50,965 bases of DNA from Candidatus Wolfebacteria bacterium (GTDB lineage Bacteria; Patescibacteriota; Minisyncoccia; UBA6257; UBA9933): the NCBI GenBank assembly GCA_016188075.1, contig JACPIO010000005.1, forward strand, positions 1-50,965, given 5' to 3'. Below, piece after piece: positions 16,318 through 37,464 of the stretch. Position 1 is the first letter of the stretch. The number at the start of each line of letters is the position of its first letter. The position numbers and the translations under genes were made by a program. The notes under the pieces are model-generated. The model made no database searches, was not told where the DNA came from, and saw nothing but the letters and a program-made list of their open reading frames with translations.

Positions 16318-16480
16318 GAGCAGGCAATTCGTCCGAAAACACGCTATCAATTTCCCCAGCGAGGAAATTGCGCTCGCTCTCGGCCTCGCTCTCCCTCGCT
16401 ACGCCAAGTCTGACTTGGCTACGCTCGGGAACCATGCCCGCTCGGCCTGCGAGACGGTTTTCTCAACAAATTGCCTGCTC
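16318..16480. repeat. Nested-palindrome element, family A copy 1
   Basis: Terminal arms GAGCAGGCAATT/AATTGCCTGCTC; core CAATTTCCCCAGCGAGGAAATTG...GGAACCATGCCCGCTCGGCCTGCGAGAC. Confidence 0.85.
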
Positions 16481-16575
16481 GGATTATACCAATTATACCA
16501 AATTTATTCGCCTACAAGAACTCAGCTACCGTTGTTGCGATTAAAAAACCCTAATGGTAAAATATTATAAATGGG

Positions 16576-17790
16576 ATGCCTAAAACAAAAATCGAGGAAG
16601 AATTAGAAAAAGGAGCGGAACTTTCGATTATCGGCTTAGTGGACAGCTTGATTGAACACGCTTATACGGCCCGGGCTTCCGACATTCACATTGATCCGGA
16701 AGAAAAACGAGTCCGGGTTCGACTTCGGATTGACGGCGTTCTTCACGACAGTTTTATTTTTCCCAACGAGGTTCATTCGGAAATTATCACCCGCATCAAA
16801 GTTTTATCCGGTCTTCGAACCGACGAACACCAAGCGGCCCAAGACGGTCGTTTTCGAATACCTCTTAAAAAAATCGGGCCGGTGGATGTCCGAGTCTCGA
16901 TCGCGCCTACCTACTATGGTGAAAACGCCGTCATGCGGTTACTCGCCGAAAGAGGGGAAAAAATTACTTTCAACTCCTTGGGCTTTAATCCCAGAGACCG
17001 ATTAAAAATCGAGCAGGCCATCAAAAAACCTTACGGCATGGTTCTCGCGACCGGTCCCACCGGCTCGGGGAAAACCACCTCGCTTTACACTTTAATAAAA
17101 ATTTTAAAAACGCCGGAGGTTTCCATCATCACTATTGAAGACCCCATTGAATATTCCATCGAAGGCGTTGACCAGATTCAGGTCAATCCGCGGACCGGTT
17201 TAACTTTCGCGAGCGGACTTCGTTCCATTCTAAGACAAGATCCTAATATTATTATGGTCGGAGAAATCCGGGACGAGGAAACCGCCCGCATCGCGGTTAA
17301 TGCCTCTTTAACCGGCCACCTTCTTCTCTCCACTCTGCATACGAACGACGCGCCCACGACTCTGCCCCGGCTTTTAGATATGAAGATTGAACCTTTTCTC
17401 ATCGCCTCCACGGTGAATATCGCCATTGGTCAAAGATTAGTGAGAAAAATTTGCTCAACCTGCAAGACTAAAAAAGCCGTGACTATGGATGAACTAAAAA
17501 GTTTAAGCGAAGTTCTGCCGCCGGAAACCCTAGCCGAATACAAAGAATTTTATAAAGGCGCCGGCTGCGGCGAGTGCAATCAAAGCGGCTACAAAGGACG
17601 AATCGGCATCTATGAAGTTTTGGAGATGGACGATGCTGTCCGGGCCGCCGTCCTAAGAAAAGCCGACGCCAGCGAAATCCGCGAGATCGCCGTCAAAAAC
17701 GGGATGACCACAATGATCAAGGACGGCTTAGAGAAAGTAATGGCTGGCGTTACCACGATTGAGGAGATATTAAGAGTAATTCACGAGTAA
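16576..17790 (+). CDS. pilB: Type IV pilus assembly ATPase
   Basis: ASDIHIDPEEKRVRVRLRIDGVL...ATGPTGSGKTTSLYTL...ITIEDPIEYSIEGVDQIQVN...RSILRQDPNIIMVGEIRDEETA; Zn site CSTC/CGEC. Confidence 0.9.
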   Translation: MPKTKIEEELEKGAELSIIGLVDSLIEHAYTARASDIHIDPEEKRVRVRLRIDGVLHDSFIFPNEVHSEIITRIKVLSGLRTDEHQAAQDGRFRIPLKKIGPVDVRVSIAPTYYGENAVMRLLAERGEKITFNSLGFNPRDRLKIEQAIKKPYGMVLATGPTGSGKTTSLYTLIKILKTPEVSIITIEDPIEYSIEGVDQIQVNPRTGLTFASGLRSILRQDPNIIMVGEIRDEETARIAVNASLTGHLLLSTLHTNDAPTTLPRLLDMKIEPFLIASTVNIAIGQRLVRKICSTCKTKKAVTMDELKSLSEVLPPETLAEYKEFYKGAGCGECNQSGYKGRIGIYEVLEMDDAVRAAVLRKADASEIREIAVKNGMTTMIKDGLEKVMAGVTTIEEILRVIHE

Positions 17791-17796
17791 TCTATG

Positions 17797-17945
17797 CCCA
17801 GTAGTGAACCCGCGATTGGATTTCGCTCAATTTATTTTAATATGCCGCGATAAGTTATAAACTAATAAGAAATTACAATAAATTTAAAAATTAAACTCTG
17901 CTCGCGAAATCAAAAATAAATTATTATCGCGGGTCTACTACTGGG
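17797..17945. repeat. MITE-like element between pilB and pilC
   Basis: Terminal inverted repeats CCCAGTAGTGAACCCGCGAT and ATCGCGGGTCTACTACTGGG (18/20 match), AT-rich interior. Confidence 0.65.
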
Positions 17946-17946
17946 T

Positions 17947-18999
17947 ATGAATCTTTTTTCTCGCGTTTCAATCCAAGAGCAAATCCTTTTTGTTAAGTAT
18001 TTAGCCGTGATGACTAAAGCTGGGATGCCCATTTTGGATTCTCTCCAGCTTATGAAAAAACAGCGCATTTCGAAAATGATGACTAAAATTCTTGATCAAA
18101 TGATTAGCGACGTCTCTAATGGCCAGTTTCTCTTCGTCAGTCTGGAGAGGTTCCGAAATGTTTTTGGCGATTTTATGCTGAACATTATCCGCGTCGGCGA
18201 GACCAGCGGCATTCTCCATGAAAATTTGAATTATCTGGCCGAAGAACTAAAGAAGAAACAGGAATTGGGGCGGAAAGTGAAGGGAGCGCTCACCTATCCC
18301 ATTATTATTCTCTTTACGGCGACCGCCATCGTCGGTCTCTTGACGCTTTATGTTTTTCCGAAAATCCTGCCGGTCTTAAAGAATCTCAAAACCAAACCGC
18401 CCCTCCCCACCCGAATTCTGATTTCGATCTCGGATTTTATGACGGCTTACGGCGTCTTTGTGTTTTTAGGCGTCATCGTTGGCGGCATCCTTCTCTGGTT
18501 TCTTGTTTCCAAAGTAAAACCGGTAAAATTTTTATTTCATCGCATCGTCCTTATCACGCCCCTGGCCGGGAGAATATCCCGAAATTACAACTTGACTGCT
18601 TTCGCAAGGACCCTCGGGCTTCTCCTTAAAAGCGACATCAAGGTCGTTGAAGCTCTTTCGATGACGGCCGAGACAATGACCAATTTAGTCTACCGAGAAG
18701 AAATGAAAAAAGTAGCCGCGAACGTAAGCCGCGGCGAAGAAATTTCCAGGCATCTCGAAAATAAAACTTATCTTTTTCCTCCCATGCTTTCTCAGATGAT
18801 CGCCATCGGCGAGAAGACCGGCAACTTAAGCGAATCGCTGCTCTACCTTGCCGAGCTTTACGAAGCCGAGCTCGACGACCTCACAAAAAATCTATCGAGC
18901 GTCCTCGAACCGGTCCTGATGATTATTTTGGGCGTTATTGTCGGATTCATCGCCCTTTCGATTATCACGCCCATCTACCAGATGACTCAAAGTCTCTAA
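17947..18999 (+). CDS. pilC: Type II secretion F family / PilC inner-membrane protein
   Basis: Two F-domain repeats, e.g. LAVMTKAGMPILDSLQLM and FARTLGLLLKSDIKVVEALSM; final LEPVLMIILGVIVGFIALSIITPIYQM. Confidence 0.9.
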   Translation: MNLFSRVSIQEQILFVKYLAVMTKAGMPILDSLQLMKKQRISKMMTKILDQMISDVSNGQFLFVSLERFRNVFGDFMLNIIRVGETSGILHENLNYLAEELKKKQELGRKVKGALTYPIIILFTATAIVGLLTLYVFPKILPVLKNLKTKPPLPTRILISISDFMTAYGVFVFLGVIVGGILLWFLVSKVKPVKFLFHRIVLITPLAGRISRNYNLTAFARTLGLLLKSDIKVVEALSMTAETMTNLVYREEMKKVAANVSRGEEISRHLENKTYLFPPMLSQMIAIGEKTGNLSESLLYLAELYEAELDDLTKNLSSVLEPVLMIILGVIVGFIALSIITPIYQMTQSL

Positions 19000-19001
19000 T
19001 T

Positions 19002-20768
19002 ATGAAAAATCAAACGATTGAAACAGGATTCAGTCTCATTGAGACGCTCGTCGCCATTACCATCTTTATTATCGTTACTGCGCCGATTTATTTTGCCTAT
19101 TCTCAAATTCTCGATATCATCCAGAGAAACCAAGCGCGCTCTTACGCCGTGGCCGTTATTCAAAACCAAATTGAAACAGTGAGAAATATGCCCTATGCGG
19201 CAGTGGGCATTCAGGGCGGCTATCCCATCGGTCAACTCTTAGCCAATCAGACTGTCAATTATGAAGGCTACTCTTTTTCTCTCCAAACCACGGTTAAGAA
19301 TATTGACGATCCTTTTGACGGCACAGTGACAAGCACCCCACAGGACACCGCGCCGGCTGATTATAAATTAGTGGAACTCGTGATTACCTGCTCCAGTTGT
19401 CCAAATTTCTCTCCGTTCACGGTGACGACCAACGTCGCCCCCAAAGCATTGGAGACAGCCACCAATAATGGCTCTTTATTCATCAATGTTTTTGACGCCG
19501 CGGGTCAGCCGGTATCTCTGGCCAATGTTCACGTTTTTAATCCTTCGACTACTCCTCCGCTCACCATTGATGATACTACTAACATCGGCGGTCTCCTCCA
19601 ATTGGTTGACATTCCAACCAGCAGTATTGCTTACGAAATTTCCGTTTCGAAATCCGGTTTTTCATCGGAGACAACTTATCCCTTGGGAGCGCCGGGGAAT
19701 CCTAATCCCGTAAAACCCCATGCCACAGTGGCCCAAGCACAGTTAACGCAAATAAGTTTTGTCATTGACCGAACCAGCACTCTGAATTTCAAAACTGCTG
19801 ACGCCTTCTGCCGCGCTCTACCCAATGTCGAATTTACCCAAACCGGCGCAAAATTAATCGGCACGAGCCCGGATATTTTTAAATACCAAAGCAGTTCGGC
19901 AACAGACGTAAATGGCCGGAAAACCGTGAGCAATATCGAATGGGATACCTATAATTTCGCGGTCTCAAGCACTGCTTATGATTTAAGCGGCACCTCCCCG
20001 GTTTTGCCCATAGTCCTTAATCCTTCAAGCACCTCCAATCTCGCATGGCTTCTTGCCCCCCGGAAACCTCGAACCCTGCTTGTTACGGTAAGGGACCAGA
20101 ACGGGAACCTCATTGACGATGCCAAAGTGGAATTATCCAAAACCGGTTTTAGCCAAGTCGCCTTTACCAAAAGAAGGCCTCTCGATCAAACTGATTGGTC
20201 TCAAAGCGGCTACGCAAGTCAAAGCGGCAATATCGAAGCAGAAGCAACGCCGGGCGAACTAAAACTTCTTGCGATAAACGGAAAATATCCGACCACGACC
20301 ATCGAGTGGCTCATCTCCAACACCTTTGATTTAGGAACGACAACCACTGCCCTCTACACTTTAGATTGGCAACCTCAAAGTCAACCCATGGAAACCGGCC
20401 CGGATAGTCTCAAATTCCAAATAGCTTCCAATAACGACCAGAGCAGTTGGAACTTTTTAGGACCAGACAACAGCACGAGCACTTTCTATACTGCCACCAC
20501 TACCCCCGTGAATCTCATCCACGCGAACAATCGCTATCTGCGCTATAAGGTTTATCTAAAAACCGATAATGAAAATTTTACCCCCCTGCTTCAGGATTTC
20601 TCCATTAACTTCTCTTCTCCTTGCATCCCCTCGGGCCAGGCCTTCCTTAATAATCTCTCGGCCGGCACCTACACCCTCACCATTCAAAAAGCCGGTTTTC
20701 AAACTTTTAGCAATTCCCTATCAATCGATAATGACTGGCAAAGTTATATTGCCACTCTCGAGCCATGA
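19002..20768 (+). CDS. Prepilin-like protein with carboxypeptidase-regulatory-like domains
   Basis: N-terminal ETGFSLIETLVAITIFIIVTAPIYF type III signal; later NGSLFINVFDAAGQPVSLANVHV and LLVTVRDQNGNLIDDAKVEL. Confidence 0.8.
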   Translation: MKNQTIETGFSLIETLVAITIFIIVTAPIYFAYSQILDIIQRNQARSYAVAVIQNQIETVRNMPYAAVGIQGGYPIGQLLANQTVNYEGYSFSLQTTVKNIDDPFDGTVTSTPQDTAPADYKLVELVITCSSCPNFSPFTVTTNVAPKALETATNNGSLFINVFDAAGQPVSLANVHVFNPSTTPPLTIDDTTNIGGLLQLVDIPTSSIAYEISVSKSGFSSETTYPLGAPGNPNPVKPHATVAQAQLTQISFVIDRTSTLNFKTADAFCRALPNVEFTQTGAKLIGTSPDIFKYQSSSATDVNGRKTVSNIEWDTYNFAVSSTAYDLSGTSPVLPIVLNPSSTSNLAWLLAPRKPRTLLVTVRDQNGNLIDDAKVELSKTGFSQVAFTKRRPLDQTDWSQSGYASQSGNIEAEATPGELKLLAINGKYPTTTIEWLISNTFDLGTTTTALYTLDWQPQSQPMETGPDSLKFQIASNNDQSSWNFLGPDNSTSTFYTATTTPVNLIHANNRYLRYKVYLKTDNENFTPLLQDFSINFSSPCIPSGQAFLNNLSAGTYTLTIQKAGFQTFSNSLSIDNDWQSYIATLEP

Positions 20769-22438
20769 AGAAATTTAATTTGTTCCTTTTTGTAATAATC
20801 GGTTTTGCCCTCATCATTTGGAGCGCGCCCTCACTCGCTTCTGCCGCTCCTCTTAAATATTTTGAATTTGCTCCGGACTCGAATTTAAACCTTAATATCG
20901 CCTCCGCTCCCACTCCTTATCAAATTTTCTATCCTCAAAATGATTTTCTAAGCGGTTTTGATCTCTGGCTTTCTAATAACGGCTCCGGAGGCACAGCCTC
21001 TTTTGGTTTAAGAGACGCCCAAGACGCGCTTCTTACGGCGAAAACCGTTTTTATTCCCTATCTTCCCGAAAAGTGGGGCGGTCAAATATTCCATATTGAT
21101 TTTGATAATCCGGTAGCAGTCTCGAGTTCCGCTCTCTATAAAATTAAAATGTTAAGCTCAATGCCCAATCTGCGAATTTATTACACTACTCGAATCCAGC
21201 TTTTAGAGCATAACGCCCTTTCTCTACCCGTTATCCTAAGCATTGTGGGGCCAGCCCGTTTAGGCGACATAGACCAATCCTTTTCCTTTAAATTCGCTCT
21301 TTACGAGGAAAACGATACTCTCCCGCCGATTATCGCGAACGTAACCTCGTCAATAATCTCTTCTCAAGCATTCCAATTACTCTTCAACACTAATGAACCA
21401 GTGGACTATCGCGTTACCTTAAATCCAGTTCAGGGAGGCGCGAGTCAAATCCAAGATTGGATGGGTAGTTATAATTTTTGCAATCTGGGTATTTTAAATT
21501 GCGGCGCAACCTTCTCGATTTTTCCCGGCGCTTCATACAACTACGAAATTCAGGCTAAAGACTACGCTCAAAATACGAGTTTAGTCGGCGGATCCTTGGG
21601 AACCTCGGCCAATCCGCCGCCGGATAATTCTCCGCCCCCAGAAACTTCATTAGTCAGTCCGCCGGTTATCTTCGGCGCTTATCTCGCGGCCTCGACTCCC
21701 CGCTCCGTAAAAATTACTTGGCAAACCGATAAAGCGGCTGACAGCAGTCTAAAAATAAGCCTTGATTCTCTGGGTAATCAGATTGTTGCTTCAGTCGTTG
21801 ATACCACCCCGGAATTAATCCATACCCTGGACACTCCGAATGTCCTTACTCCGGAAACCAATTATTTTGCTATTTTAAGTTCGGGCGCCTCTGGCGCCTC
21901 CGCGAACCAAATCTTAAGTTTTAAAACCACGGCCGAAGCGCAAGCAGGGGTAAGCGCGGTAAGCAGTCAAGGCATACCCAATTCTAATTCTAATAATGTC
22001 TCTCCTTTGGGATCTTCAGGAATCACTCCGGTAACAAGCGGTAATTCTCCGCTATCAGAAGCGAAAATTAGTCTTTCCGAAGACGACGCAGGAAAAGCAA
22101 TTCTAACCATAGAGTGGCAAGCTCCGAGTTACGGCGAACCGAAACAAGGTTATCGCATCCATATCTTCAACGAAAGGAACGAACTAACCAGAGAAGTGTC
22201 TATCCCAGCCGGCACTCATCGGATTAGAATCTCTGATTTAGAAGCGGGCCAGTATCGGGTATTAATTTACGCCAATCAGGGAGGTATCCTCGAACGGATC
22301 GCCGAAGAAGCGACGCTTACCATCCATGAAAAATCAGTTTCGTTTTTCCAAAGCTTTTCTTTTTATGTTCTCATCGGCGTCATTCTCATCCTCGCGGCTA
22401 TTATCGCCTTTTATGTTATCCGACTTAAGCAAGTATAA
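20765..22438 (+). CDS. Secreted/anchored protein with FnIII-like domains, pilus operon
   Basis: Signal peptide; VKITWQTDKAADSSLKI and LTIEWQAPSYGEPKQGYRIHIF; C-terminal TM; ATGA overlap with the preceding ORF. Confidence 0.7.
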   Translation: MKKFNLFLFVIIGFALIIWSAPSLASAAPLKYFEFAPDSNLNLNIASAPTPYQIFYPQNDFLSGFDLWLSNNGSGGTASFGLRDAQDALLTAKTVFIPYLPEKWGGQIFHIDFDNPVAVSSSALYKIKMLSSMPNLRIYYTTRIQLLEHNALSLPVILSIVGPARLGDIDQSFSFKFALYEENDTLPPIIANVTSSIISSQAFQLLFNTNEPVDYRVTLNPVQGGASQIQDWMGSYNFCNLGILNCGATFSIFPGASYNYEIQAKDYAQNTSLVGGSLGTSANPPPDNSPPPETSLVSPPVIFGAYLAASTPRSVKITWQTDKAADSSLKISLDSLGNQIVASVVDTTPELIHTLDTPNVLTPETNYFAILSSGASGASANQILSFKTTAEAQAGVSAVSSQGIPNSNSNNVSPLGSSGITPVTSGNSPLSEAKISLSEDDAGKAILTIEWQAPSYGEPKQGYRIHIFNERNELTREVSIPAGTHRIRISDLEAGQYRVLIYANQGGILERIAEEATLTIHEKSVSFFQSFSFYVLIGVILILAAIIAFYVIRLKQV

Positions 22439-22442
22439 ATTT

Positions 22443-23030
22443 ATGAAGGGATTCACTCTGGTGGAGCTGATGCTGGGTTTTTCAATCATTTTGGTTATTG
22501 TCGCGGCGGCCGGATTATTTTCCGGCAATGTCTTGAACTTAAATAACATCTTCAAGGGAACTTTGGAAACGCGGGAAGAAGCCGGGCAAACTCTCCAAGC
22601 CATGGTAACCGAAATCCGCTCTCTCGCGCCGTCCAATATCGGCGGTTATCCCATCGAGGCCGCGGCCAGCAGTTCTCTTGTTTTTTTTAGCGACATTGAT
22701 ACCGACGGACTATTCGAACGAGTAAGATATTTCGTGGATGGCAATAACCTAAAAAAAGGAACCGTCAAACCAACAGGCAGTCCTTTGACTTATAATCCGG
22801 GAAATGAAATTATTACCGAACAAATTCATAACCTGATTTTAACCGCCTCCTCAACGTTTTCCTACTACGACGCGAATTACACCGGCATCGAACCTCCACT
22901 CGTTTTTCCGGTCAATACTTCTCTCATCCGAACGATCGGCGTTCGGATTGCCGCCCAGAAACAAAATCAAGGCGCGCCTTCCTCTTTTACCATTCAAGTT
23001 ACTCCCCGAAATTTACGAAGTAATCTATGA
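22443..23030 (+). CDS. Prepilin-like protein
   Basis: MKGFTLVELMLGFSIILVIVAAAGLFSG; start chosen downstream of the track ORF start. Confidence 0.8.
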   Translation: MKGFTLVELMLGFSIILVIVAAAGLFSGNVLNLNNIFKGTLETREEAGQTLQAMVTEIRSLAPSNIGGYPIEAAASSSLVFFSDIDTDGLFERVRYFVDGNNLKKGTVKPTGSPLTYNPGNEIITEQIHNLILTASSTFSYYDANYTGIEPPLVFPVNTSLIRTIGVRIAAQKQNQGAPSSFTIQVTPRNLRSNL

Positions 23031-24505
23031 GAACAACTAACAACACAAAAAAGGGTCAGTTAACTCTTCAGCTTCTAATTTTTGGCGGAGTGGCTGTCAT
23101 TTTCTTGGCTGGTTTTTTGATTTGGCTGGATAGCGCTTCTAAATCAACAATTAGAAATCTGGATAAGGCGCAGGCCTTCGTCGTTGCCGAAGCCGGTATT
23201 GAGTATTATCGCTGGCACTTGGCCCACGCTCCTCAAGATTTTAGCGATGGCACCACCACTCCGGGTCCCTATATTCACGACTATACGGATAAAAATGGAA
23301 ATGTATTGGGACAATTCGTTTTAAATATTACGCCCCCGCCGGTTGGTTCGAGCGTAGTAACCATCGAATCAAAAGGGAAGTTGAGCTCCGACCCCACCGT
23401 AGAAAAAACCATTAAAGTAAGGATGGGTATTCCTTCTTTTGCTAAGTTCGCCGCCGTCTTAAATGAGAATGTTCGTTTCGGTCCAGGCACCGAGGTTTTC
23501 GGCGCCGTCCACTCGAACTCTGGGGTTCGCTTTGACGGTATAGCTCACAATCTGGTAACCAGCGGCCTTGCCTCCTATGATGACCCTGATCATAGTGACA
23601 CGAATCTTGAATTTGGAGTTCACACGCATGTTAACCCCCCGCCCGGCACCGGCACTACTTCATCCTTCCGACCATTGGAGGCGCCGCCCAATCCCGTGCC
23701 TGATCGACCAGACGTCTTTCTCGCTGGCCGTCAGTTTCCGGTGCCTACCGTGGACTTTGTCGGCATTACCCAAACTCTTGCTCAAATCAAAGCTGACGCC
23801 CAAGCCGGCGGTTTCTACGCTCCTTCTTCAACCGCGTTTGGTTACGACATTCAACTTAAAACCAATAATACCTTTGACCTCTACCGCGTAACCGGCCTTG
23901 TCCCCTCTCCTTCCTCTGATTGCGCTAAATCTCAAACGCAAGGCGGCGGGGATCAAAGCGGCTGGGGTACATGGAGCATCCAAGCCGAAACTTTTCTCGG
24001 CAACAATCCTATTCCGGCCAATGGTTTAATCTTCATCGAAGATGATGTTTGGGTTAAAGGTCAAATAAATGCGAGCCGCGTTACCATTGCTTCAGCTCGG
24101 TTCCCGGACAATTCCGCGACAAGAAGCAGTATCACTATAAACGACAATCTTCTCTATACCAATTACGACGGTCGTGACGCTATTAGTCTTCTTGCTCAAA
24201 AAAATATTAATATCGGCTGGGTCAGTCAGGATATTTTGCGGGTTGATGCCGCTTTGATGGCGCAAAATGGCCGCGTGGGCCGATATTACTACAATGGTTT
24301 TTGCGCTCCTTATCACGCAAGAAATACCATTACCACCTACGGTATGATTGCTTCCGCAAAAAGATACGGCTTTGCTTATGCTAATGGCACCGGCTATCAA
24401 ACGCGCAATCTTATTTACGATTCCAATCTTCTTTATGGTCCGCCGCCGAGTTTCCCTCTGACAACGGATTCCTATCAAACAATCTCTTGGGATGAAACCA
24501 AATGA
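23027..24505 (+). CDS. PilX-like pilus-associated protein
   Basis: GQLTLQLLIFGGVAVIFLAGFLIWLDSASKSTIRNLDKAQAFVVAEAGIEYYRWHLAHA; ATGA overlap. Confidence 0.75.
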   Translation: MRTTNNTKKGQLTLQLLIFGGVAVIFLAGFLIWLDSASKSTIRNLDKAQAFVVAEAGIEYYRWHLAHAPQDFSDGTTTPGPYIHDYTDKNGNVLGQFVLNITPPPVGSSVVTIESKGKLSSDPTVEKTIKVRMGIPSFAKFAAVLNENVRFGPGTEVFGAVHSNSGVRFDGIAHNLVTSGLASYDDPDHSDTNLEFGVHTHVNPPPGTGTTSSFRPLEAPPNPVPDRPDVFLAGRQFPVPTVDFVGITQTLAQIKADAQAGGFYAPSSTAFGYDIQLKTNNTFDLYRVTGLVPSPSSDCAKSQTQGGGDQSGWGTWSIQAETFLGNNPIPANGLIFIEDDVWVKGQINASRVTIASARFPDNSATRSSITINDNLLYTNYDGRDAISLLAQKNINIGWVSQDILRVDAALMAQNGRVGRYYYNGFCAPYHARNTITTYGMIASAKRYGFAYANGTGYQTRNLIYDSNLLYGPPPSFPLTTDSYQTISWDETK

Positions 24506-25068: not shown

Positions 25069-25854
25069 TTATTTTTTCCGACAGATAAAAATCATCTGTT
25101 CGCTGCTTGGCTTATATGGTTTTAGGTTGAAATCGCCATAAACTTTTACCGGACGCAAACCAACTTCATCCAATAAGGACTGGATTTCCAGAAATGTAGA
25201 TTGATACGCGGAAACAGGATAATGCCATCGCTTAATAGAACCGTCCATTTTTAATATTTCCATAAAGTAATGTATTTGGAATATATGTTCTTCGGGAACT
25301 TGTACGGCAGAAGAAAGGCTCCAAGTTTCATTTTTTATTACTCGTGAAAAATGATGCCTTATGATGTATTCTTTAGATAGGTCATTGGGAGAAAAAAGAT
25401 CGAAAGCGAATAAGCCGTTTTTATCAAGATGCTTGACTATATTTCTTAGAGCTTCGTGTTGTCTTTTTCTTGTTTCTCTCGGTGTATAGTATGTTCCGTC
25501 TTTCTGGGCCAGATACGCCAAGCTGTCAAAAGACAGGAAAATGAAAGTGAATTGCTTATTTTTAAGAAGAGGAGAATAAAATTTGATTAAATCATCTTGA
25601 AAAATTTTTACCTTTTTGACCTTCAATGTTTCGATTTTCTTTTTTGCAATCTCCAGCATGGCAGTATTTATGTCAAAGCCCCAGATTTCTTTTCCTGATC
25701 GCGCGATAGGGGCAAGGATTCGTCCGGTTCCGCATCCACATTCCAAAATCGGCCCGTCAACTTTTTGAGCCAATTTGTAATAAAAATCCACGTCATCTTT
25801 TTTATTCTTATATTCTAAATCGTAAAAATTTGCGTAAAGTTGCTCTTTATTCAT
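25069..25854 (-). CDS. SAM-dependent methyltransferase (paralogue 1)
   Basis: GPILECGCGTGRILAPIARSGKEIWGFDINTAML; 261 aa, near-identical architecture to 31078-31863. Confidence 0.9.
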   Translation of the reverse strand: MNKEQLYANFYDLEYKNKKDDVDFYYKLAQKVDGPILECGCGTGRILAPIARSGKEIWGFDINTAMLEIAKKKIETLKVKKVKIFQDDLIKFYSPLLKNKQFTFIFLSFDSLAYLAQKDGTYYTPRETRKRQHEALRNIVKHLDKNGLFAFDLFSPNDLSKEYIIRHHFSRVIKNETWSLSSAVQVPEEHIFQIHYFMEILKMDGSIKRWHYPVSAYQSTFLEIQSLLDEVGLRPVKVYGDFNLKPYKPSSEQMIFICRKK

Positions 25855-29770: not shown

Positions 29771-29806
29771 TCTATATTCCCCTACTCCCTACTCCAAAAA
29801 TGGGAA

Positions 29807-29852
29807 AGGGCCGAATCGCATGAGAGATGAAACATCTCGCGATTCGGCCCTT
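29807..29852 (-). terminator. Terminator hairpin for the 29861-30577 gene
   Basis: AAGGGCCGAATCGC..GCGATTCGGCCCTT. Confidence 0.65.
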
Positions 29853-29860
29853 GTTGACGA

Positions 29861-30577
29861 CTATTCTGGTTCCAACTCCCAAGTGCAGATGGCATTGGGA
29901 GGGCACGGCTCCCCGAGGCGGCGCATTACTTGCTTGATAACCAAATTCCGGAATCGGGCGTCGCGGGAAAGCTGGATAATTGCATCCGCGACTGCCCAAA
30001 CCCGATCAAAATCTCCCATTCGGTAGTTAGTTGGGTGGACCCCGGCCTGCTGTCGAAGCCAAGGGTGCCACCCGTCGATGGTCGGGTAAACGGGAATCGT
30101 CAGGGAACTCACATAGTGCTCGAGTTCCCCGTAGGCAACCCGGCCGATACCATGTTCCGGCGGGTTGTTTCGGATAAACTCCCCGGCGAAAACTACCGCC
30201 AAGTTCACAACGATGGCTCCGTTTTCGTACATATACTGATACGGGGCTAGTTGCGGCAAGTATCGCTGGATACATTGCCGGTCACAAAAAACAACTTTGA
30301 CCGGTGTCGCGGGATACTCTGACGTGCCCACGTCTGTTGGAGCGCCGTGCTCCTGCGCGACCCCCATCAGCGCTGGCCAAATCCGGGCCAGCCGCTCGAT
30401 GGTGTCGGCGTTGACCGACGCTGTTTGGGCACGAGACCCGCCAGGCATCCAGACGCAGACCGTCTGGTTCGCCGAGCAATCTCCGGGTTCCCGGAGAAGG
30501 TCAGCGATGGTCGCCGCCTCTACTACTCCGCCAGCCAGAAGGCTGGCGAATACTGCCGCGAACACCAGCGTCTTCAT
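29861..30577 (-). CDS. Secreted hypothetical protein
   Basis: MKTLVFAAVFASLLAGGVVEA signal; 238 aa; upstream GCAGAAAGGACAGCC. Confidence 0.7.
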   Translation of the reverse strand: MKTLVFAAVFASLLAGGVVEAATIADLLREPGDCSANQTVCVWMPGGSRAQTASVNADTIERLARIWPALMGVAQEHGAPTDVGTSEYPATPVKVVFCDRQCIQRYLPQLAPYQYMYENGAIVVNLAVVFAGEFIRNNPPEHGIGRVAYGELEHYVSSLTIPVYPTIDGWHPWLRQQAGVHPTNYRMGDFDRVWAVADAIIQLSRDARFRNLVIKQVMRRLGEPCPPNAICTWELEPE

Positions 30578-30784
30578 GGCTGTCCTTTCTGCTCGGCTCC
30601 GCGAGGAGTCGAGCTCTTTGCCCGTGCGGGCGTTTGGAGTTTAAGTTTTCAATTCTGCGATTCTCTCCGTAGCCGTCGTCAGACCACGAAGAGTAGATTA
30701 TCAAAGGACGTCGTGAATCTTCTTCTCTCTCAAAAATTCACGACACCCTTCGAAATAATTATCAGTTATTGATTATTATTTTTT

Positions 30785-30822
30785 TTATTACCAATTACTA
30801 CTTACTAATTGCCAATTACCGC
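30785..30822. repeat. Heptamer tandem repeat
   Basis: TTACCAA TTACTAC TTACTAA TTGCCAA TTACCG. Confidence 0.65.
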
Positions 30823-30871
30823 TCTACCGTAAAGCGGACTTCTCTATTTATACTTTAACCTTCCGCGCCGA

Positions 30872-31014
30872 AAAATCAAGAGGTAAAAAATGTAGATTTC
30901 AAGCCCTTTCCCTCAAATCTGTCGCAAAATAATGCGCTCGCCATGCGCCAATTTTGCCTTATCTCTACCTAATGATAACGAATCAATCCCCAATTAAGTT
31001 TCAGGCTGCTGGAT
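30872..31014. repeat. Dispersed intergenic repeat copy (pair with 33897-34016)
   Basis: Shares AGAGGT(T)AA..TAGATTTCAAGCCCTT, TCGCAAAAT, ATAACGAA(T/C)CAATCCCC(A/G)ATTAAGTTT with the second copy. Confidence 0.7.
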
Positions 31015-31077
31015 TTAAAAAATCTTCAAAAAAAGATTGTTGTTTATTTAAACTTTTGCTGATAGAATGACATCGTT

Positions 31078-31863
31078 ATGAATAAAACGCAACTCTACGC
31101 AAAATTTTACGATTTAGAATATGTGAATAAAAAAGATGACGTGGATTTTTATTACAAATTGGCTCAAAAAGTTGACGGGCCAATTTTGGAATGTGGATGC
31201 GGGACTGGACGGATTCTTGCTCCTATCGCGCGATCGGGGAAAGCAATCTGGGGATTTGATATTAATACTGCCATGCTGGATATTACGAAAAAGAGGATTA
31301 AGACGCTGAAAATTAAAAAGGTCAAGATTTTTGAAGACGATTTAACCAACTTTTCTTCACCTTTGCTTAAAAATAAACAATTTGATTTCATCTTCCTGTC
31401 TTTTGACAGCTTAGCATATCTTGCCCAAAAAGACGGAACGTTCTATTCACCGCAAGAAACGCAACACAGACAATATCTAGCATTAAAAAATATCGCTAAG
31501 CGACTCGATGCAAACGGTATATTCGCCTTTGATCTTTTTGCTCCTAATGATTTATCAAAAGAATATACCATAAGACACCATTTCTCACGAATAATAAAAA
31601 ATGAAACGTGGAGTCTTTTTTCTGCCATACAGATTCCCACCAAGCATATTTTTCAGATTCATTATTTTATGGAAGTTTCAAAAAATAACGGCGTTGTTCA
31701 AAAATGGCATTACCCTGTTTCTGCGTATCAAGCTACCTTCCCAGAAATAAAGTCTTTGTTGGGCAAAGTTGGTCTGCATCCAGTAAAAATTTATGGAGAC
31801 TTCAGTCTGAAACCGTACAAACCAAGCAGTGAACAGATGATTTTTATTTGTCGAAAAAAATAA
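31078..31863 (+). CDS. SAM-dependent methyltransferase (paralogue 2)
   Basis: GPILECGCGTGRILAPIARSGKAIWGFDINTAML; 261 aa. Confidence 0.9.
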   Translation: MNKTQLYAKFYDLEYVNKKDDVDFYYKLAQKVDGPILECGCGTGRILAPIARSGKAIWGFDINTAMLDITKKRIKTLKIKKVKIFEDDLTNFSSPLLKNKQFDFIFLSFDSLAYLAQKDGTFYSPQETQHRQYLALKNIAKRLDANGIFAFDLFAPNDLSKEYTIRHHFSRIIKNETWSLFSAIQIPTKHIFQIHYFMEVSKNNGVVQKWHYPVSAYQATFPEIKSLLGKVGLHPVKIYGDFSLKPYKPSSEQMIFICRKK

Positions 31864-31865
31864 AG

Positions 31866-31896
31866 TAAGGAGGCTATTCACCGTTAGCCTCCTTGT
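31866..31896 (+). terminator. Terminator-like hairpin after methyltransferase 2
   Basis: AAGGAGGCTAttcaccgtTAGCCTCCTT. Confidence 0.6.
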
Positions 31897-32019
31897 AAAC
31901 AAAGATCGAGTTTTCGCCGAAGCGGCGAGCTATCCAAGAATCTTCCAGCCATTTGCGTAACTCAGGAGGACAGAAGGCAAGCGCTTTCTGTCCTCCTTTT
32001 CTTTTGATAAAATTAACAT

Positions 32020-32847
32020 ATGCAATCCAATTTGGTAAAAATTAAATTCCATTTTCCCAACCTATCGCGGAAAATAAGAAATAAGCGAGAAGTTGTTGAT
32101 TTGTTGATGGAAGCAATGCAAAGAAATGGAGATATCAAGTACGCGGGATATCTTAAGGAGAAAGATTTACATAAAGATTTGCTACGGCATATAGGCAGCG
32201 GGGATATTACGCTATACAGCTCGCTTTCAGTGAAACAAAAGAAAGCTATTGAAAAAACTATCTATGGGACGATAAAAAAATGCCACAAGACTCTGCCGCA
32301 TCCCGATTTGCCGATTTTTGCGTTTGTGTATCCGTGGTTTCCAAAAACGAATGACCGCGCTCTGTTCGGAGGGATTATGGCTCTTGCGGCATATTACACC
32401 ATACATCTTTTTGTTGATTTAAGCGCCTACACTCAAAAATCTCTTAAACAGACAATTGCCCATGAATGGAATCATCTTGTATTTTACCGGCATCATCCCG
32501 CACGTCAATACACACTTTGCGATCATATAATAATGGAAGGTTTTGCCGAAGCTTTCAGAGAAGAAATGATGGGCGGTAAGCCGGCTCCTTGGGCATTGGC
32601 TTTAACCAAAAAAGAAGCAAAAAAACAATTAGGATTACTTAAAAAGAGGCTTAATACAAAAGGTGTAAAAATATATAGGGAAGTGTTTTTTGGAAACAAA
32701 AAGTATAAACGATGGACCGGATATTCCATCGGGTATTGGTTGATAAAGGAATTCAGGAAGAGACACCCGAAGCTTTCATGGGAAGAAATTATTAAGACAA
32801 AACCAGAAAATATTTTATTAGAAGCTGTTATAAAAAGAAGGGCGTAA
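32020..32847 (+). CDS. DUF2268-like putative Zn-dependent protease
   Basis: QTIAHEWNHLVFYRHHP (HExxH) ... HIIMEGFAEAFREEM ... YKRWTGYSIGYWLIKEF. Confidence 0.75.
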   Translation: MQSNLVKIKFHFPNLSRKIRNKREVVDLLMEAMQRNGDIKYAGYLKEKDLHKDLLRHIGSGDITLYSSLSVKQKKAIEKTIYGTIKKCHKTLPHPDLPIFAFVYPWFPKTNDRALFGGIMALAAYYTIHLFVDLSAYTQKSLKQTIAHEWNHLVFYRHHPARQYTLCDHIIMEGFAEAFREEMMGGKPAPWALALTKKEAKKQLGLLKKRLNTKGVKIYREVFFGNKKYKRWTGYSIGYWLIKEFRKRHPKLSWEEIIKTKPENILLEAVIKRRA

Positions 32848-32892
32848 CGGTTGTTTTCGCTACGCCCCAGACGAGAAGCGTGAAGCAGTGAC

Positions 32893-33021
32893 TTACTTGC
32901 CCTTGCCGCACTTGCCGTTACCACCACCACCCGAGCTGCACTGCTCCTGGAAGCGAACCATCCCTGGCACGGGCTTCGGTTCGGTCGTGATCTTCCAAGA
33001 GAACTTCTTGGGGTTCTTCAT
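32893..33021 (-). CDS. 42 aa peptide with Gly/Cys-rich tail
   Basis: ATG preceded by GGAAGGAGGTGAGAAG; MKNPKKFSWKITTEPKPVPGMVRFQEQCSSGGGGNGKCGKGK*; downstream hairpin GGGCGTAgcgaaaacaaccgtTACGCCC + TTCTTTTT on the minus strand. Confidence 0.65.
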   Translation of the reverse strand: MKNPKKFSWKITTEPKPVPGMVRFQEQCSSGGGGNGKCGKGK

Positions 33022-33394
33022 CTTCTCACCTCCTTCCGTTTTTGTTTTCAGGCAGGGCAAACTGCTTCTTCGCCTCCCTTCCGCCCTTTCCTGATTTTCA
33101 AACAGATCAAAACCTGTTGCTATTTTTTAGAGTAGGCTGTTTTTAAAAAAATCAAGAGGTTAAAAGGTAGATTAAGCTCTTCCTCTGCGTAACGATCGTA
33201 CTTCATTTGACTGAAGCAACCAAAGTTTTCGAATCAAACCACTCCCCCATTACCTGTTCTCCTCTATATAAACTCATTTCGTTTAATATAACAACGCGCG
33301 TAAATTCCGTATTTTTTTCGAAAATAAATTTCGGCCAAGCGGCCGTTCACTATCGAAAAACACCACCCATCGTTAAACTGAACTGATTTTTCCT

Positions 33395-33640
33395 TCACTT
33401 CGGGTGTTTTATTATGGTTACAATTTCGTACAAATCTCCTTTAATTCTGAAATAAAATCTGTAATCTCTGCTAATGCGCGCCTGCCAAATATCATAATTT
33501 TCATCATATTTCTTGGTATGAAGCGATGGATGCTTAAAATTACACAATAATAAAGTAAACTGCTTGTCAGCAATTTTATTTAAATTTTTTGGCAATCCCC
33601 GATAGTCGCGGAGGGCCCGAGCCGAAAAATTTAATCTCAT
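33395..33640 (-). CDS. RelE/ParE-type toxin
   Basis: MRLNFSARALRDYRGLPKNLNKIADKQFTLLL...YDIWQARISRDYRFYFRIKGDLYEIVTIIKH. Confidence 0.8.
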   Translation of the reverse strand: MRLNFSARALRDYRGLPKNLNKIADKQFTLLLCNFKHPSLHTKKYDENYDIWQARISRDYRFYFRIKGDLYEIVTIIKHPK

Positions 33641-33651
33641 CTATTGAGAAA

Positions 33652-33861
33652 TCAATCCTCGAGTGACTTTTTTAATTCTTTGACGTTTTTAAAGGGGCCG
33701 AAGACGCGACCGGACTCGATGTCCCGCAGACCCTCGGCGATCGCTCCGTCAATCGCGTTTTGCGCGCGGTTCGATATTGCGACCTTACCCACCCTAAAAG
33801 ACGCAATCGGTATTTTGAGAATAAGATATTTTGATGTTTTTTCCACGGTAACCTGAGGCAT
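33652..33861 (-). CDS. Putative antitoxin partner
   Basis: 69 aa ORF 11 nt upstream of the toxin start. Confidence 0.7.
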   Translation of the reverse strand: MPQVTVEKTSKYLILKIPIASFRVGKVAISNRAQNAIDGAIAEGLRDIESGRVFGPFKNVKELKKSLED

Positions 33862-33896
33862 GTTACTTATTACCTTACTACAAATTACATCAAAAA

Positions 33897-34016
33897 GTCA
33901 ACAAGAGGTTAATAGTATAGATTTCAAGCCCTTCCCCCCAACAAATTCTTGAATTTATCGCAAAATATATTTCCCGATACAATATATAACGAACCAATCC
34001 CCGATTAAGTTTAAAC
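33897..34016. repeat. Dispersed intergenic repeat copy (pair with 30872-31014)
   Basis: See partner feature; lies upstream of the TA pair. Confidence 0.7.
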
Positions 34017-34094
34017 AGTTTGAAAAATAAGGACATCGCAAGTCTAAAGATTCCACCGGTGGATTATCGCCTAAAATAATGCTAAACTTAAATA

Positions 34095-35375
34095 ATGAAG
34101 CGGATTGTCATTTTAGGAGGGGGGTTTGGAGGCGTAAACGCCTATCTCGAATTAACTAAACTTTTTCGATCTTCCAAAAAAAAGGCGGAGATCACCCTTG
34201 TTGACGAAAAGGATTATTTTGACTTTCTTCCTCTAATCCACGAAGTGGCCACGGGCAGTTTAGCGTCCAGCGGCGTCATTCGGCCTTTCCGCCAAATCAT
34301 AAAAGAGCACGACGGACGCTTTTTGCAAGGCAAAGTTTTAGAAGTCAATCTTGACAAACAAATTGTTTCGATTGACCAATACCCTCTGGAAATTAACGAA
34401 CCGCCGAAAGTCGTCTCTTTGGCTTATGACTTTTTAATCTTGGGGCTGGGGTCGGAGACCGAATATTATGATATTCCGGGAGCCGCTGAATACTCCTTTA
34501 CCTTAAAAACCCTCACGGACGCGCGAAAAATAAAATATCTCTTAGTGGACAGATTTGAACAGGCCGAGGCCGCGCCGGAAGAGGAAAAGAAAAAATTACT
34601 TTGCTTTGTCATAGTGGGCGGCGGCCCGACCGGCGTGGAGCTCGCTGGCGAGATAGCCGATCTTATAAACGACGAACTTTATCGGGCATTTCCCAATCTT
34701 CGAGGCATATCCCAAGTTCAGCTTATTCAACGAGCCAAAACCTTAGTCCCTCACGAAGAAGAGTGGTTTCAAAAACAAACTTTGAAAATCCTAAAGAAAA
34801 AAATGAAAGTAAAAGTACTCTTGGATCAACGAGTTCTCGAAATCACGGCCGACGGCGTTCAAATCAAGGGTAATTTTATCCCCTGCCGCAATGTTTTCTG
34901 GACAGCCGGAGTAAAAGCGAAAAACCTTAAAATTAAATCCAAAAAGCCGCTGGAGTATGAAGAAAAAACGCGCCGGATAAAAGTGCAAAATACTTTAAAC
35001 AGCTCTTCTTATCCTAATTTATTTATGGTCGGCGACCAAGCTTGGATTTGCGACAAAGAAAATCATCAGCCCTATCCGATGCGCGCCCAGTTCGCCATGA
35101 GGGAGGGCCGGCGAGCCGCCCGAAATATCTGGCGGATGATTGATAATAAACCGCTCCAAGAATTCCACTGGCAAGACAAAGGCTTTCTTTTATCTTTAGG
35201 CAAGGGCGTTGCTTTGGCGCGCGTTTTGGGGTTTCGTCTCCAAGGCCCTCTGGCTTGGCTCATCTACCGGCTAGCTTATCTTATAAATATCATCGGATTC
35301 AGGGCAAAGCTCACAACCGGGATGGAATGGCTCATAAATTTATTCCTAGCGCGCGACATCTGGAAGCCGAAATAG
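34095..35375 (+). CDS. NAD(P)/FAD-dependent oxidoreductase, NDH-2-like
   Basis: KRIVILGGGFGGVNAYLEL...DEKDYFDFLPLIHEVATG...VIVGGGPTGVELAGEIADL...NLFMVGDQAW. Confidence 0.85.
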   Translation: MKRIVILGGGFGGVNAYLELTKLFRSSKKKAEITLVDEKDYFDFLPLIHEVATGSLASSGVIRPFRQIIKEHDGRFLQGKVLEVNLDKQIVSIDQYPLEINEPPKVVSLAYDFLILGLGSETEYYDIPGAAEYSFTLKTLTDARKIKYLLVDRFEQAEAAPEEEKKKLLCFVIVGGGPTGVELAGEIADLINDELYRAFPNLRGISQVQLIQRAKTLVPHEEEWFQKQTLKILKKKMKVKVLLDQRVLEITADGVQIKGNFIPCRNVFWTAGVKAKNLKIKSKKPLEYEEKTRRIKVQNTLNSSSYPNLFMVGDQAWICDKENHQPYPMRAQFAMREGRRAARNIWRMIDNKPLQEFHWQDKGFLLSLGKGVALARVLGFRLQGPLAWLIYRLAYLINIIGFRAKLTTGMEWLINLFLARDIWKPK

Positions 35376-35386
35376 ATTATTGCTTA

Positions 35387-37264
35387 TTAAGAGGAACGAA
35401 TTCGAAAAAGCTTGCTCGAATTTATGAGCGGCAGAAAATCAGTCAGAAAATTATAAGCGGCCGCGCCCGTGGGCCCAATAATTCCGCCAAAAACCAAAAA
35501 TAAGCCGACAACGTTCGTTAATCCCCAAATCCAAAGATCTTGCTTTAAAACTTTCATCGTGTAACGGCTTAATTTTGCCGCTTCGGGAATATCGGTCAAG
35601 CGGTCCTTCATTAAAACAATATCCGCCGACTCGATAGCCGCGTCAGCGCCAATCGCGCCCATCGCGATGCCAATGTCGGCCAAAGACAAGGCCGCCGCGT
35701 CATTCACGCCGTCCCCCACCATCACCACCTTGTAATTCGGGCTCAAAATTGACTTTAAATAGTCCAACTTTTCTTGCGGCAGAAGATTAGCTCTAAACTC
35801 CTCGATATGAACTTCTTCTGCTGTGGCTCGAGCCACTTCTTGATTGTCGCCGGTAAGCATAATGACGCGGCGAATTCCGAGCTCCCTCAACTCGTCCACT
35901 ACTTTCGAGGCTTTGGGTCGAATCGAATCCTTCATGGAGACAAATCCGACCAATCTTCCTTTTTCCGCTAAAAATAGCACATTCCGGCCTAAAGATTTTT
36001 GTTCTTCAATCAGTTTTATATCGGAAGGAGAAATTGGAACGCCGTTTGCCTCCAGCATTTTAAAATTTCCGGCCATAATCGGCAAACCCGATTTTACAGC
36101 TTTGATTCCGTATCCGGGCACTTCCATTATTTCGCTTAAAGCGGACAATTGGAGATCGGCGCCGTTTTCTTTGGCAAAGTGATGAATGGCCTGGGCCAGT
36201 GGATGATTGGAAACGCTTTCTAATGTCCCGAGCGCGGAGAGAAATTCTTTCTTATCGTATCCGGAAAAAACATGATAATTTTCGACCTGGAACTTGCCGG
36301 TGGTAATGGTGCCGGTCTTATCAGTAACAATAATTTCGGCTTGACTTAACCCCTCGAGAAACCTGCCTCCTTTTATAATTATTCCCCGGCGAGCCGCCTG
36401 GCCAATAGCCGCGGTCAAGCCCAAGGGAATTCCCACTGCCAAATCATCGGCGCAAACGACCAGCAAAACCGAAAGAACAAGAGGTAAATTTTTCGTTGTA
36501 AGGTAAAGCAAGAGGCTCGCGCCTAAAGCTAAAATAATATACCAATTGGCGAATCGTTCAGCCATCGAAGAAATAGGGGCTTTGGCAACCGAGGCTTTTT
36601 CGACCAAATCTATGATTCTTGAAAAAGTCGTATCCGCTCCGACGCGTTCGGCTCGAACCAAAATCAAACCGCCCAGATTCAGGGTTGAACTCCAGACTTT
36701 CTCGCCCTTCTCCCGCGTGACAGGTTCGGACTCGCCGGTAAGAGTGGATTCGTCGATGCTGGCTGTTCCGGATTCAACCACGCCGTCCGCCGGAATCCGA
36801 TCCCCTGCCTCGACCTCGATCAAATCTCCCCTCCTAAGATCCTCCATTCTAACTTGCTTAATTTCCTCTCCGACTCTCACGTGAATTTTCTGCGGATGGA
36901 GCTTCAAAAGACTTTTTATAGCCTGTCTTGCTCGACCGTCGGTCCAAAGGGAAAAAACTCTGGCGGAAGCAATCATTAAATTAATAAAAAGAGCCGATTG
37001 CCATTCTTGGCTTAAGATAGAAGCTAAAAGAGCGATGCTGGCCAAAAGATCTATAGTCAGCTGTTTTTTAACTAAAGCGGAGAGCGCGCTTAAAAGAACC
37101 GGAATAAGGCCAATAAGCGAAGCGCTAATCAGTGCCGCCGTAAAGAGCGGGTAACGAGACACCTTGTCGTAAAAACTCAAAAGCAAAATAAAAACAGAGG
37201 AGCCGATCAAAGCAACATCGAACCAGAAATAAAATTTTTGCGAGCGGTCTAAGTGGCGTCCCAT
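35387..37264 (-). CDS. Heavy-metal-type P-type ATPase (P1B-like)
   Basis: DKTGTITTGKF, MLTGDNQEVA, VGDGVNDAAALSLADIGIAMG; start MGRHLDRSQKFYFWF chosen because the track N-terminus translates palindromic repeats. Confidence 0.85.
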   Translation of the reverse strand: MGRHLDRSQKFYFWFDVALIGSSVFILLLSFYDKVSRYPLFTAALISASLIGLIPVLLSALSALVKKQLTIDLLASIALLASILSQEWQSALFINLMIASARVFSLWTDGRARQAIKSLLKLHPQKIHVRVGEEIKQVRMEDLRRGDLIEVEAGDRIPADGVVESGTASIDESTLTGESEPVTREKGEKVWSSTLNLGGLILVRAERVGADTTFSRIIDLVEKASVAKAPISSMAERFANWYIILALGASLLLYLTTKNLPLVLSVLLVVCADDLAVGIPLGLTAAIGQAARRGIIIKGGRFLEGLSQAEIIVTDKTGTITTGKFQVENYHVFSGYDKKEFLSALGTLESVSNHPLAQAIHHFAKENGADLQLSALSEIMEVPGYGIKAVKSGLPIMAGNFKMLEANGVPISPSDIKLIEEQKSLGRNVLFLAEKGRLVGFVSMKDSIRPKASKVVDELRELGIRRVIMLTGDNQEVARATAEEVHIEEFRANLLPQEKLDYLKSILSPNYKVVMVGDGVNDAAALSLADIGIAMGAIGADAAIESADIVLMKDRLTDIPEAAKLSRYTMKVLKQDLWIWGLTNVVGLFLVFGGIIGPTGAAAYNFLTDFLPLINSSKLFRIRSS

Positions 37265-37318
37265 TGTTGAAAAAAAATTACATATGTAAGAATTCCTATC
37301 GTTGTTTACATTGTATCC

Positions 37319-37464
37319 AGCCAGCGGTTTTATTCTCGAAAAGACGCGGTCAATTTCCCCAGCGAGGAAATTGCCGCTTGGCTCTCGGCCTTGCTCTCCT
37401 CGCTTCGCTCGGAACCATGCCCGCTCGGCCTCCGAGACACTTTTCTCAAACAAAGCCGCTGGCT
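37319..37464. repeat. Nested-palindrome element, family A copy 2
   Basis: Terminal arms AGCCAGCGGTTT/AAAGCCGCTGGCT; core CAATTTCCCCAGCGAGGAAATTG...GGAACCATGCCCGCTCGGCCTCCGAGAC shared with 16318-16480. Confidence 0.85.

Follow-up and report, generated by a model that had tools for sequence, protein, structure and literature searches.

A widespread family of small folded DNA elements with conserved loops and freely varying, paired stems in Parcubacteria

The window analyzed here, a stretch of 50,965 nucleotides on contig JACPIO010000005.1 of a Candidatus Wolfebacteria bacterium, carries four copies of a palindromic element (Table 1). Two of these, copies 1 and 2, had been noticed in a preliminary description as a conserved core framed by unrelated arms, and both lie exactly where that description placed them. 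The core segments CAATTTCCCCAGCGAGGAAATTG, CTCTCGGCC and GGAACCATGCCCGCTCGGCCTSCGAGAC are indeed common to the two copies, the flank GTAAGAA..CGTTGTTTAYA is shared beside them, and the outer arms are unrelated between the copies, each pair being self-complementary (GAGCAGGCAATT/AATTGCCTGCTC versus AGCCAGCGGTTTT/AAAGCCGCTGGCT). Both copies fold far better than shuffled sequences (z of -5.1 and -4.0). The hairpin motif occurs five times in the 676-kb genome, three times in the forward and twice in the reverse direction, compared with zero occurrences of the reversed control, and one of the five shows a compensated change, CAAATTCC/GGAATTTG; given these counts and this change, the likeness between copies 1 and 2 is not attributable to chance. 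The covariance model search, a check proposed in the preliminary description, detects the four copies in the window and has matches in 91 of the 286 genomes of the class. According to the model, the palindrome directly downstream of copy 2 belongs to the same family but lies on the opposite strand, and copy 4 is located 38 nt past the stop codon of a minus-strand gene (3626-4696). The extra hairpin that copy 1 carries in its P3b loop recurs in another copy in the same genome (L004).

Two refinements of the original picture concern the flanks and the arms. The flank, GTAAGAA..CGTTGTTTACA, is a 26-bp terminal inverted repeat, and its partner for copy 2 lies beyond copy 3, outside the interval first described; for copy 1, a search for a clear right partner of the terminal inverted repeat found none. 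The two arm types represent two small subfamilies in this genome, one with GCAGGCAATT (L001, L003, L005 and L014) and the other with AGCCAGCGG (L002 and L004).

Table 1. Copies of the element in the window, their parts and the surrounding terminal repeats
Feature	Position	Strand	Core and evidence
Copy 4, core	3466-3587	-	covariance model match, E 3e-10
Left terminal inverted repeat, MITE-like shell of copy 1 (TGTAAGAAATTACAGCGTTGTTTATA)	16287-16312	+	
Copy 1, whole	16318-16480	+	core 16335-16463; covariance model match, E 7e-27
Copy 1, left arm GAGCAGGCAATT	16318-16329	+	
Copy 1, P2 hairpin	16348-16370	+	
Copy 1, extra small hairpin GCCAAGTCTGACTTGGC, nested in P3b loop	16403-16419	.	
Copy 1, right arm AATTGCCTGCTC	16469-16480	+	
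Left terminal inverted repeat, shell around copies 2 and 3 (TGTAAGAATTCCTATCGTTGTTTACA)	37285-37310	+	
Copy 2, whole	37319-37464	+	core 37338-37446; covariance model match, E 7e-30
Copy 2, left arm AGCCAGCGGTTTT	37319-37331	+	
Copy 2, P2 hairpin	37351-37373	+	
Copy 2, right arm AAAGCCGCTGGCT	37452-37464	+	
Copy 3, inverted neighbor of copy 2	37480-37631	-	core 37499-37611; repeat pair I6 and covariance model match, E 5e-11
Copy 3, arms	37480-37505 / 37606-37631	-	
Right terminal inverted repeat, shell around copies 2 and 3 (TGTAAACAAGGCTCGAGTTCC..)	37637-37661	-	

The unit of the family is a three-way-junction core of ~110 nt enclosed in self-complementary arms, with a total size of about 150-200 bp, and several loci per genome carry copies. 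The unpaired nucleotides (ACG, CCAGCGA, TCG, TCGCTC, ACCATGCCCGCT and CTCC) are conserved, and this conservation extends to contigs assigned to other phyla. In the alignment, 26 of the 47 unpaired columns are conserved at 80% or more, compared with only 8 of the 62 paired columns, the stems varying freely while remaining Watson-Crick paired. The palindromes that had been set apart as ‘family B' are not a separate family but members of this one, as is evident from L025, a hybrid copy, and from the covariance model. Adjacent inverted pairs such as that in the window (37338+/37499-) are found at four further loci (L058, L077, L084 and L164), and dispersed copies of one genome can have their arms in common (G027, and the WOR-3 and JAUWWY contigs). 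Identity with a known structured RNA was rejected because no Rfam family matches the element at the gathering score or at an E-value of 0.1, and carriage by phages was rejected because the A-type pattern has no match in the viral contigs searched. These are widespread, small, non-coding, folded DNA elements of Parcubacteria, and the repeat family has apparently not been described before.

The variation in the stems is strongly concerted. In a plain MAFFT alignment of 37 sequences, not fitted to the structure, two-sided changes occur in 27 of the 32 pairs, and pairing is kept in 89.4% of the cells, compared with 73.0% in shuffles, none of which (0 of 500) reaches the observed level; when the partners are slid, only 37-53% of the cells pair. 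In an alignment of 88 sequences fitted to the model, all 31 pairs change on both sides, with 889 two-sided cells. The arms pair with their own partners at a mean score of 12.2, compared with 5.2 for the arms of other copies, and the own partner is the best match in 38 of 49 cases; among the remaining cases, several are siblings from one subfamily. Thus, the part of the preliminary description that saw pairing kept with a free stem sequence stands, but selection on folding, to which it attributed this pattern, is not the sole possible cause. Because the arms can hold an inverted native gene end, the covariation could arise without selection at each step, through hairpin-templated copying, that is, template-switch mutation, a documented source of perfect stems (PMC8794818).

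The folding had been proposed to involve either RNA or a cruciform or single-stranded DNA, and the RNA side of this proposal has to be revised. The stem cells include 4315 Watson-Crick, 74 G.T and 116 A.C combinations, the latter number falling to about 70 once three badly registered pairs are left out, whereas the tRNAs of the same loci show 18 G.T against 4 A.C. Since G.T is no more common than A.C, unlike the case of these tRNAs, the stem pairing is, apparently, maintained at the DNA rather than at the RNA level. Taken as a whole, the original interpretation is partly supported.

The positions of the copies relative to genes bear on the same question. The copies are mostly located directly behind a stop codon and in one orientation, with 59 of them within 45 nt past a same-strand stop codon and only 5 in the mirror-image arrangement (p = 9e-13), a sense-orientation bias that is not predicted for a pure DNA parasite and favors a role in RNA or transcription. 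Such a bias, along with the strong fold and the covariation, would be expected of a structured 3' UTR RNA that is transcribed with the upstream gene, acts in the sense orientation (by protecting the mRNA 3' end or controlling translation or termination) and spreads secondarily by insertion. We nevertheless consider this explanation rather unlikely, in view of the lack of excess of G.U over A.C, the absence of both a T-run after the stem and an Rfam family, and the in-gene copies, which occur in both orientations (15 same, 12 opposite). An intrinsic terminator was rejected because no T-run directly follows the stem; TTTT is present within 12 nt of the stem in 14% of the after-stop copies, compared with 8% of the others. 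The in-frame copies leave the ORFs open throughout the element in ligA, folD, nifS, tsaD, mnmA and parB, and the ligA and folD homologs lack the element; a self-splicing intron was rejected in view of this open frame and of the occurrence of in-gene copies in either orientation.

Location after the gene in one orientation, folded single-strand logic, retention of unpaired bases and freedom of the stem sequence are all shared with the attC sites of integrons, in which structure rather than sequence is conserved (PMC2727003). The elements could, then, be envisaged as attC-like sites, with a folded strand after each gene recognized by its shape by a tyrosine recombinase. However, the copies are dispersed over contigs instead of forming cassette arrays, some reside inside housekeeping genes, the conserved bases belong to a three-way junction, and an integron integrase was found in none of the 286 genomes (E of 1e-60 or over the cut-off), a weak argument given that the control genomes were silent too. 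An origin of this kind appears highly unlikely.

In this genome, the copies are enclosed in a MITE-like shell, whose 26-bp terminal repeats were located by a mismatch pattern (a profile search with a 33-nt repeat gave no matches) and surround copies also in G079, G057 and other genomes. The terminal repeats, the 7-bp direct duplications at L003, L057 and L181 (perfect in one copy of this genome) and the lack of coding capacity are reminiscent of MITEs of DDE insertion sequences, and in one genome (G010) the same repeat adjoins a broken transposase fragment weakly similar to IS481 (E = 8e-4). It is nonetheless improbable that the elements are just ordinary MITEs derived from an IS481-like insertion sequence, with the palindrome as a fold-back interior carried by the terminal repeats: the core is widespread without the repeats, which are absent from most copies elsewhere, including all in-gene copies examined; conservation is higher in the core than in the repeats, and two copies in G079 have an identical core but different repeats; no IS481 transposase was found in a search of this genome; and there is no reason for a MITE to vary its inner stems and yet keep them paired.

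A location near gene ends, a frequent arrangement as neighboring inverted pairs and the capacity to form single-strand stem-loops are also typical of the palindromes of REP, BIME and REPIN sequences, and this genome encodes four Y1 genes, so that a REP-type element moved by a Y1 (RAYT) transposase had to be considered. REPs are palindromes of 20-40 bp with a GT(A/G)G head (PMC2817692), whereas the family described here spans 110-200 bp, has a far larger, three-way-junction fold and shows no GTAG/GTGG head in the alignments. Mobilization by RAYT/Y1 was rejected for lack of co-occurrence, Y1 genes being present in 56 of the 91 carriers and 126 of the 195 non-carriers (Fisher p = 0.69), with 35 of the 91 carriers having no Y1 match; moreover, the RAYT in the window itself is flanked by a different repeat. 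A REP-type origin is accordingly very improbable.

Comparison of sister species shows that the whole palindrome, including both arms, can be present in one and absent from the other (L067/L118, L244/L267 and L172/L272). Deletion remnants are found at the L171 and L217 sites, and some of the differences between sister species may be losses, not gains. The orthologous copies L070 and L073 share their loops and have arms changed on both sides. In L257, the right arm repeats the last codons of the host gene in inverted form, and 13 of 57 after-stop copies have the stop codon within a paired arm, compared with 3.7% for mismatched arms; arm sequence can thus arise from the flank, with L257 as the main, polarized case. 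The arms are not, in general, an inverted target duplication made at insertion because the sister sites L118, L267 and L272 show neither arm and because several copies in the same genome can have arms in common.

On balance, we lean toward the view that the family consists of non-autonomous mobile palindromic DNA and renews its stems through hairpin-templated copying. A putative trans-acting recombinase would recognize the folded single strand or cruciform via the loop nucleotides, so that the sequence of the stems would not matter. The stems would be renewed by hairpin-templated synthesis, with one arm copied onto the other through template switching, which might also pull flanking sequence into an arm and so leave each older copy with private self-complementary arms, recently amplified copies of one genome presumably still sharing theirs. 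The insertions that survive would be mainly those past stop codons and those in protein loops that tolerate them. Against this view stand the Y1 transposases that do not co-occur with the copies, the search of this genome that found no IS481 transposase, and the sense-orientation bias past stop codons. A more specific version is possible but tentative, namely, a new type of mobile site in which a three-way-junction DNA fold would be read only via its unpaired loops, the stems, devoid of sequence information, would be re-templated again and again from the other arm or the flanking gene, yielding private arms, and the putative recombinase would favor gene 3' ends in one orientation.

Among the known systems, the Rickettsia palindromic elements, mobile palindromes of ~150 bp that comprise several families (PMC10969869), likewise occupy intergenic sites and, in frame, the interior of unrelated genes. 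The present family is set apart by description, that is, by its different hosts, conserved three-way-junction core, free compensated stems, copy-specific arms and polarity after stop codons, and a partial test of Rickettsia records with the A-type pattern alone gave no match. The multi-base compensated changes, the stem extension and the tolerance of palindromes in protein genes recall template-switch hairpins (PMC8794818) and coding palindromes (PMC6649704), except that, in the present case, a mobile family that is dispersed and keeps its loops would undergo the process time after time.

The family provides a natural experiment on the evolution of perfect palindromes, with dozens of insertions in related genomes that have loops in common and differ in their stems, which opens the disputed contribution of template switching to the origin and upkeep of stems to direct testing. 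It also calls for caution, in that a strong covariation signal, which commonly passes for proof that an RNA is functional, may originate at the DNA level. For the streamlined genomes of Parcubacteria, the finding adds a widespread repeat family that interrupts or lengthens housekeeping proteins, among them DNA ligase, FolD, NifS and TsaD.

The two copies of the nested palindrome belong to a family that is traceable through many relatives as a unit gained and lost whole, with conserved loops, stems free in sequence and a polar position. Core, flanks and arms of both copies are present in the window as the preliminary description had it, and the folds are much better than those of shuffled sequences (z -5.1 and -4.0 for copies 1 and 2). 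The covariance model detects four copies in the window, including the one at 3466-3587, and assigns the palindrome immediately to the right of copy 2 to the same family on the opposite strand (see the table). Across the 676-kb genome the hairpin motif has five occurrences, some in each orientation, and one of them carries a compensated pair of changes; similarity searches add further copies. The supposedly unrelated arms of copies 1 and 2 do differ, but in this genome they represent two main types, each common to several copies, that is, two subfamilies sharing arms.

Features of the window
Feature	Positions	Strand	Remarks
Copy 1	16318-16480	+	
Copy 2	37319-37464	+	
Copy 3	37480-37631	-	
Copy 4, core	3466-3587	-	
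Partner of the terminal inverted repeat of copy 2	37637-37661		
Palindromic repeat TTACGACATCGTAAGTCGT	6722-6767, 7461-7506, 8076-8121, 34024-34069		
Y1 transposase, RAYT-type	6769-7452	-	flanked by TTACGACATCGTAAGTCGT
Methyltransferase-domain gene	25069-25854	-	261 aa; within an 831-nt inverted repeat, 81% alike
Methyltransferase-domain gene	31078-31863	+	261 aa; other half of the same repeat
Open reading frame	37905-42167	-	1420 aa; internal repeats (CCACTGGTCAGACGGACAAG and longer), no Pfam match
Duplicated stretch	46797-48561		GATGGTATCG.AGCCGCTCTTTTTCTTCGTCCAT and CGCCACCCGSGTGGCG, two copies ~0.9-1.7 kb apart

When 37 cores are aligned with plain MAFFT, a three-way junction drawn by hand pairs 89.4% of the cells, with two-sided changes in 27 of 32 pairs and a covariation score of 0.41, compared with 73.0%, 16.3 pairs and 0.14, respectively, for shuffled alignments, none of 500 reaching the real values; once the partners are slid, pairing drops to 37-53%. 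The covariation proposed from two copies thus extends over many. In 88 further matches, all 31 pairs show two-sided changes (889 cells), in an alignment (A3) that, like A4, was fitted to the covariance model and hence is biased toward it. Conservation at >=80% is found in 26 of 47 unpaired columns vs 8 of 62 paired ones, the unpaired consensus being ACG, CCAGCGA, TCG, TCGCTC, ACCATGCCCGCT and CTCC, and an internal loop, GCTCGG/CCTCGC, is present farther out in many copies. Outside the core, the arms are indeed self-complementary yet unrelated between copies: the cognate partner is the best one in 38 of 49 cases (score 12.2 vs 5.2). No Rfam family matches the element.

Matches to the 382-bp composite occur in 25 of 61 genomes, a count that includes the genome of the window. 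Among 85,462 species, the fixed core pattern turns up in 32 contigs, most of them from Parcubacteria (Wolfe-, Jorgensen-, Lipton-, Azam- and Terrybacteria); the outliers, labelled WOR-3, Deltaproteobacteria and Actinomycetota, are metagenome-assembled, so that misbinning is possible. The suggested covariance-model search, seeded on 37 copies, detects members in 91 of the 286 genomes scanned from the class, with up to 13 matches per genome, given draft genomes and rough E-values. Neighbouring inverted pairs recur (the window and loci L058, L077, L084 and L164). The viral contigs searched gave no match to the A-type pattern, and the open-access literature yielded no description of palindromic elements in Patescibacteria or Parcubacteria matching this family.

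When every core is read in a single direction, 59 copies start within 45 nt past the stop codon that ends an ORF on their own strand (ORFs called mechanically) vs five in the mirror-image position (p 9e-13); some sites pooled under two names (L095 = L157, L090 = L156) slightly inflate the counts. An intrinsic terminator can be dismissed because no T-run follows the stem. Reading frames hold 27 more copies, split 15 to 12 between the two orientations. Their host genes, as named by eye from sequence features, include ligA, folD, nifS (two different sites), tsaD, mnmA and parB; insertion-free homologues of ligA and folD back insertion there. Two copies with differing arms, L067 (genome G019) and L198 (G229), occupy the same kind of place, just upstream of trpS, in genomes from two different families; insertion there is either recurrent or very old.

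At the site of L067, the intergenic sequence of the sister genome G013 consists of just ATTTT, with neither arm, and the sister-species sites of L244 and L172 likewise lack element and arms, so the arms are usually gained and lost together with the element. Elements also decay by deletion, because relatives retain only fragments at the L171 and L217 sites: a left arm with inner shell, a right tip, or fused outer arms with the core missing. One gene end carries two very different members in sister species, L264 (G260) and L172 (G281), with a half-copy remaining next to one member, as though gene ends collected the remains of nested insertions. The orthologues L070 and L073 have loops in common and arms changed on both sides (CGTCGGCTT/AAGCCGACG vs ATCGGTCTT/AAGACCGAT). 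L241 and L268, at the same gene end, likewise share loops, and their P1, P3a and P3b stems differ, each paired, which may instead reflect a second insertion. At L257, the native gene end is AAGTCGTAG (AAGGCGTAA in the sister genome G245, which lacks the copy), and the right arm, CTACGATTT, is its inverted copy with one mismatch; of the 57 after-stop copies, 13 have the stop codon within the paired arm, vs 3.7% for mismatched arms. We read both observations as hairpin-templated copying, which would correct and extend the palindrome of a mobile element and was previously described for RNA genes (PMC8794818).

A fold acting as RNA would be expected to tolerate G.U but not A.C. The pair cells of 160 copies comprise 4315 Watson-Crick, 74 G.T and 116 A.C pairs (~68 and ~70 without three clearly out-of-register pairs), vs 18 G.T and 4 A.C in tRNA acceptor and T stems of the same loci (Fisher p 1.6e-4; 0.005 for the trimmed counts). 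Of the proposed folding as RNA or as cruciform or single-stranded DNA, these counts favour DNA: the pairing appears to be kept at that level, an evolutionary argument rather than a measurement.

The flank TGTAAGAAnnnnnnnnCGTTGTTTACA of copies 1 and 2 is a 26-bp terminal inverted repeat. Direct 7-bp duplications bound such repeats at L003 (AATATAA, the window's genome), L057 (AATTAAA, another family) and L181 (AATATAA, G079), and in G010 this repeat lies in front of a broken transposase fragment (weak IS481 model match, E 8e-4). The palindrome thus has a MITE-like shell around it in the window's genome, although a search there for an IS481 transposase found none. MITE features belong to this outer shell only, and only in some copies. 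In G010, these 26-bp terminal repeats also enclose just a short segment that carries the start of a transposase but lacks the nested palindrome (L053, G010:C46:4037-4160), an empty version of the shell.

The Y1 transposase in the table, one of four in this genome, forms with TTACGACATCGTAAGTCGT a distinct REP-like system; another short repeat, AAACTACGAATTCATCCGAATCTAC, has dozens of copies in G013 and G019, of one genus (L066-L073). The family itself resembles RPEs as in-frame palindromes, REPs in placement near gene ends and in inverted pairs, and attC sites in logic (shape read, sequence free, placed after a gene). It falls outside the REP/RAYT definition, having neither head motif nor Y1 association (Y1 genes in 56 of 91 carriers vs 126 of 195 non-carriers). 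An integron integrase search of 286 genomes gave no matches, with control genomes silent too. Orientation after stop codons, the least explained feature, lies outside the mechanism that we propose: a putative recombinase would recognise the folded strand, template switching would renew the stems, and insertions would persist mainly where harmless.
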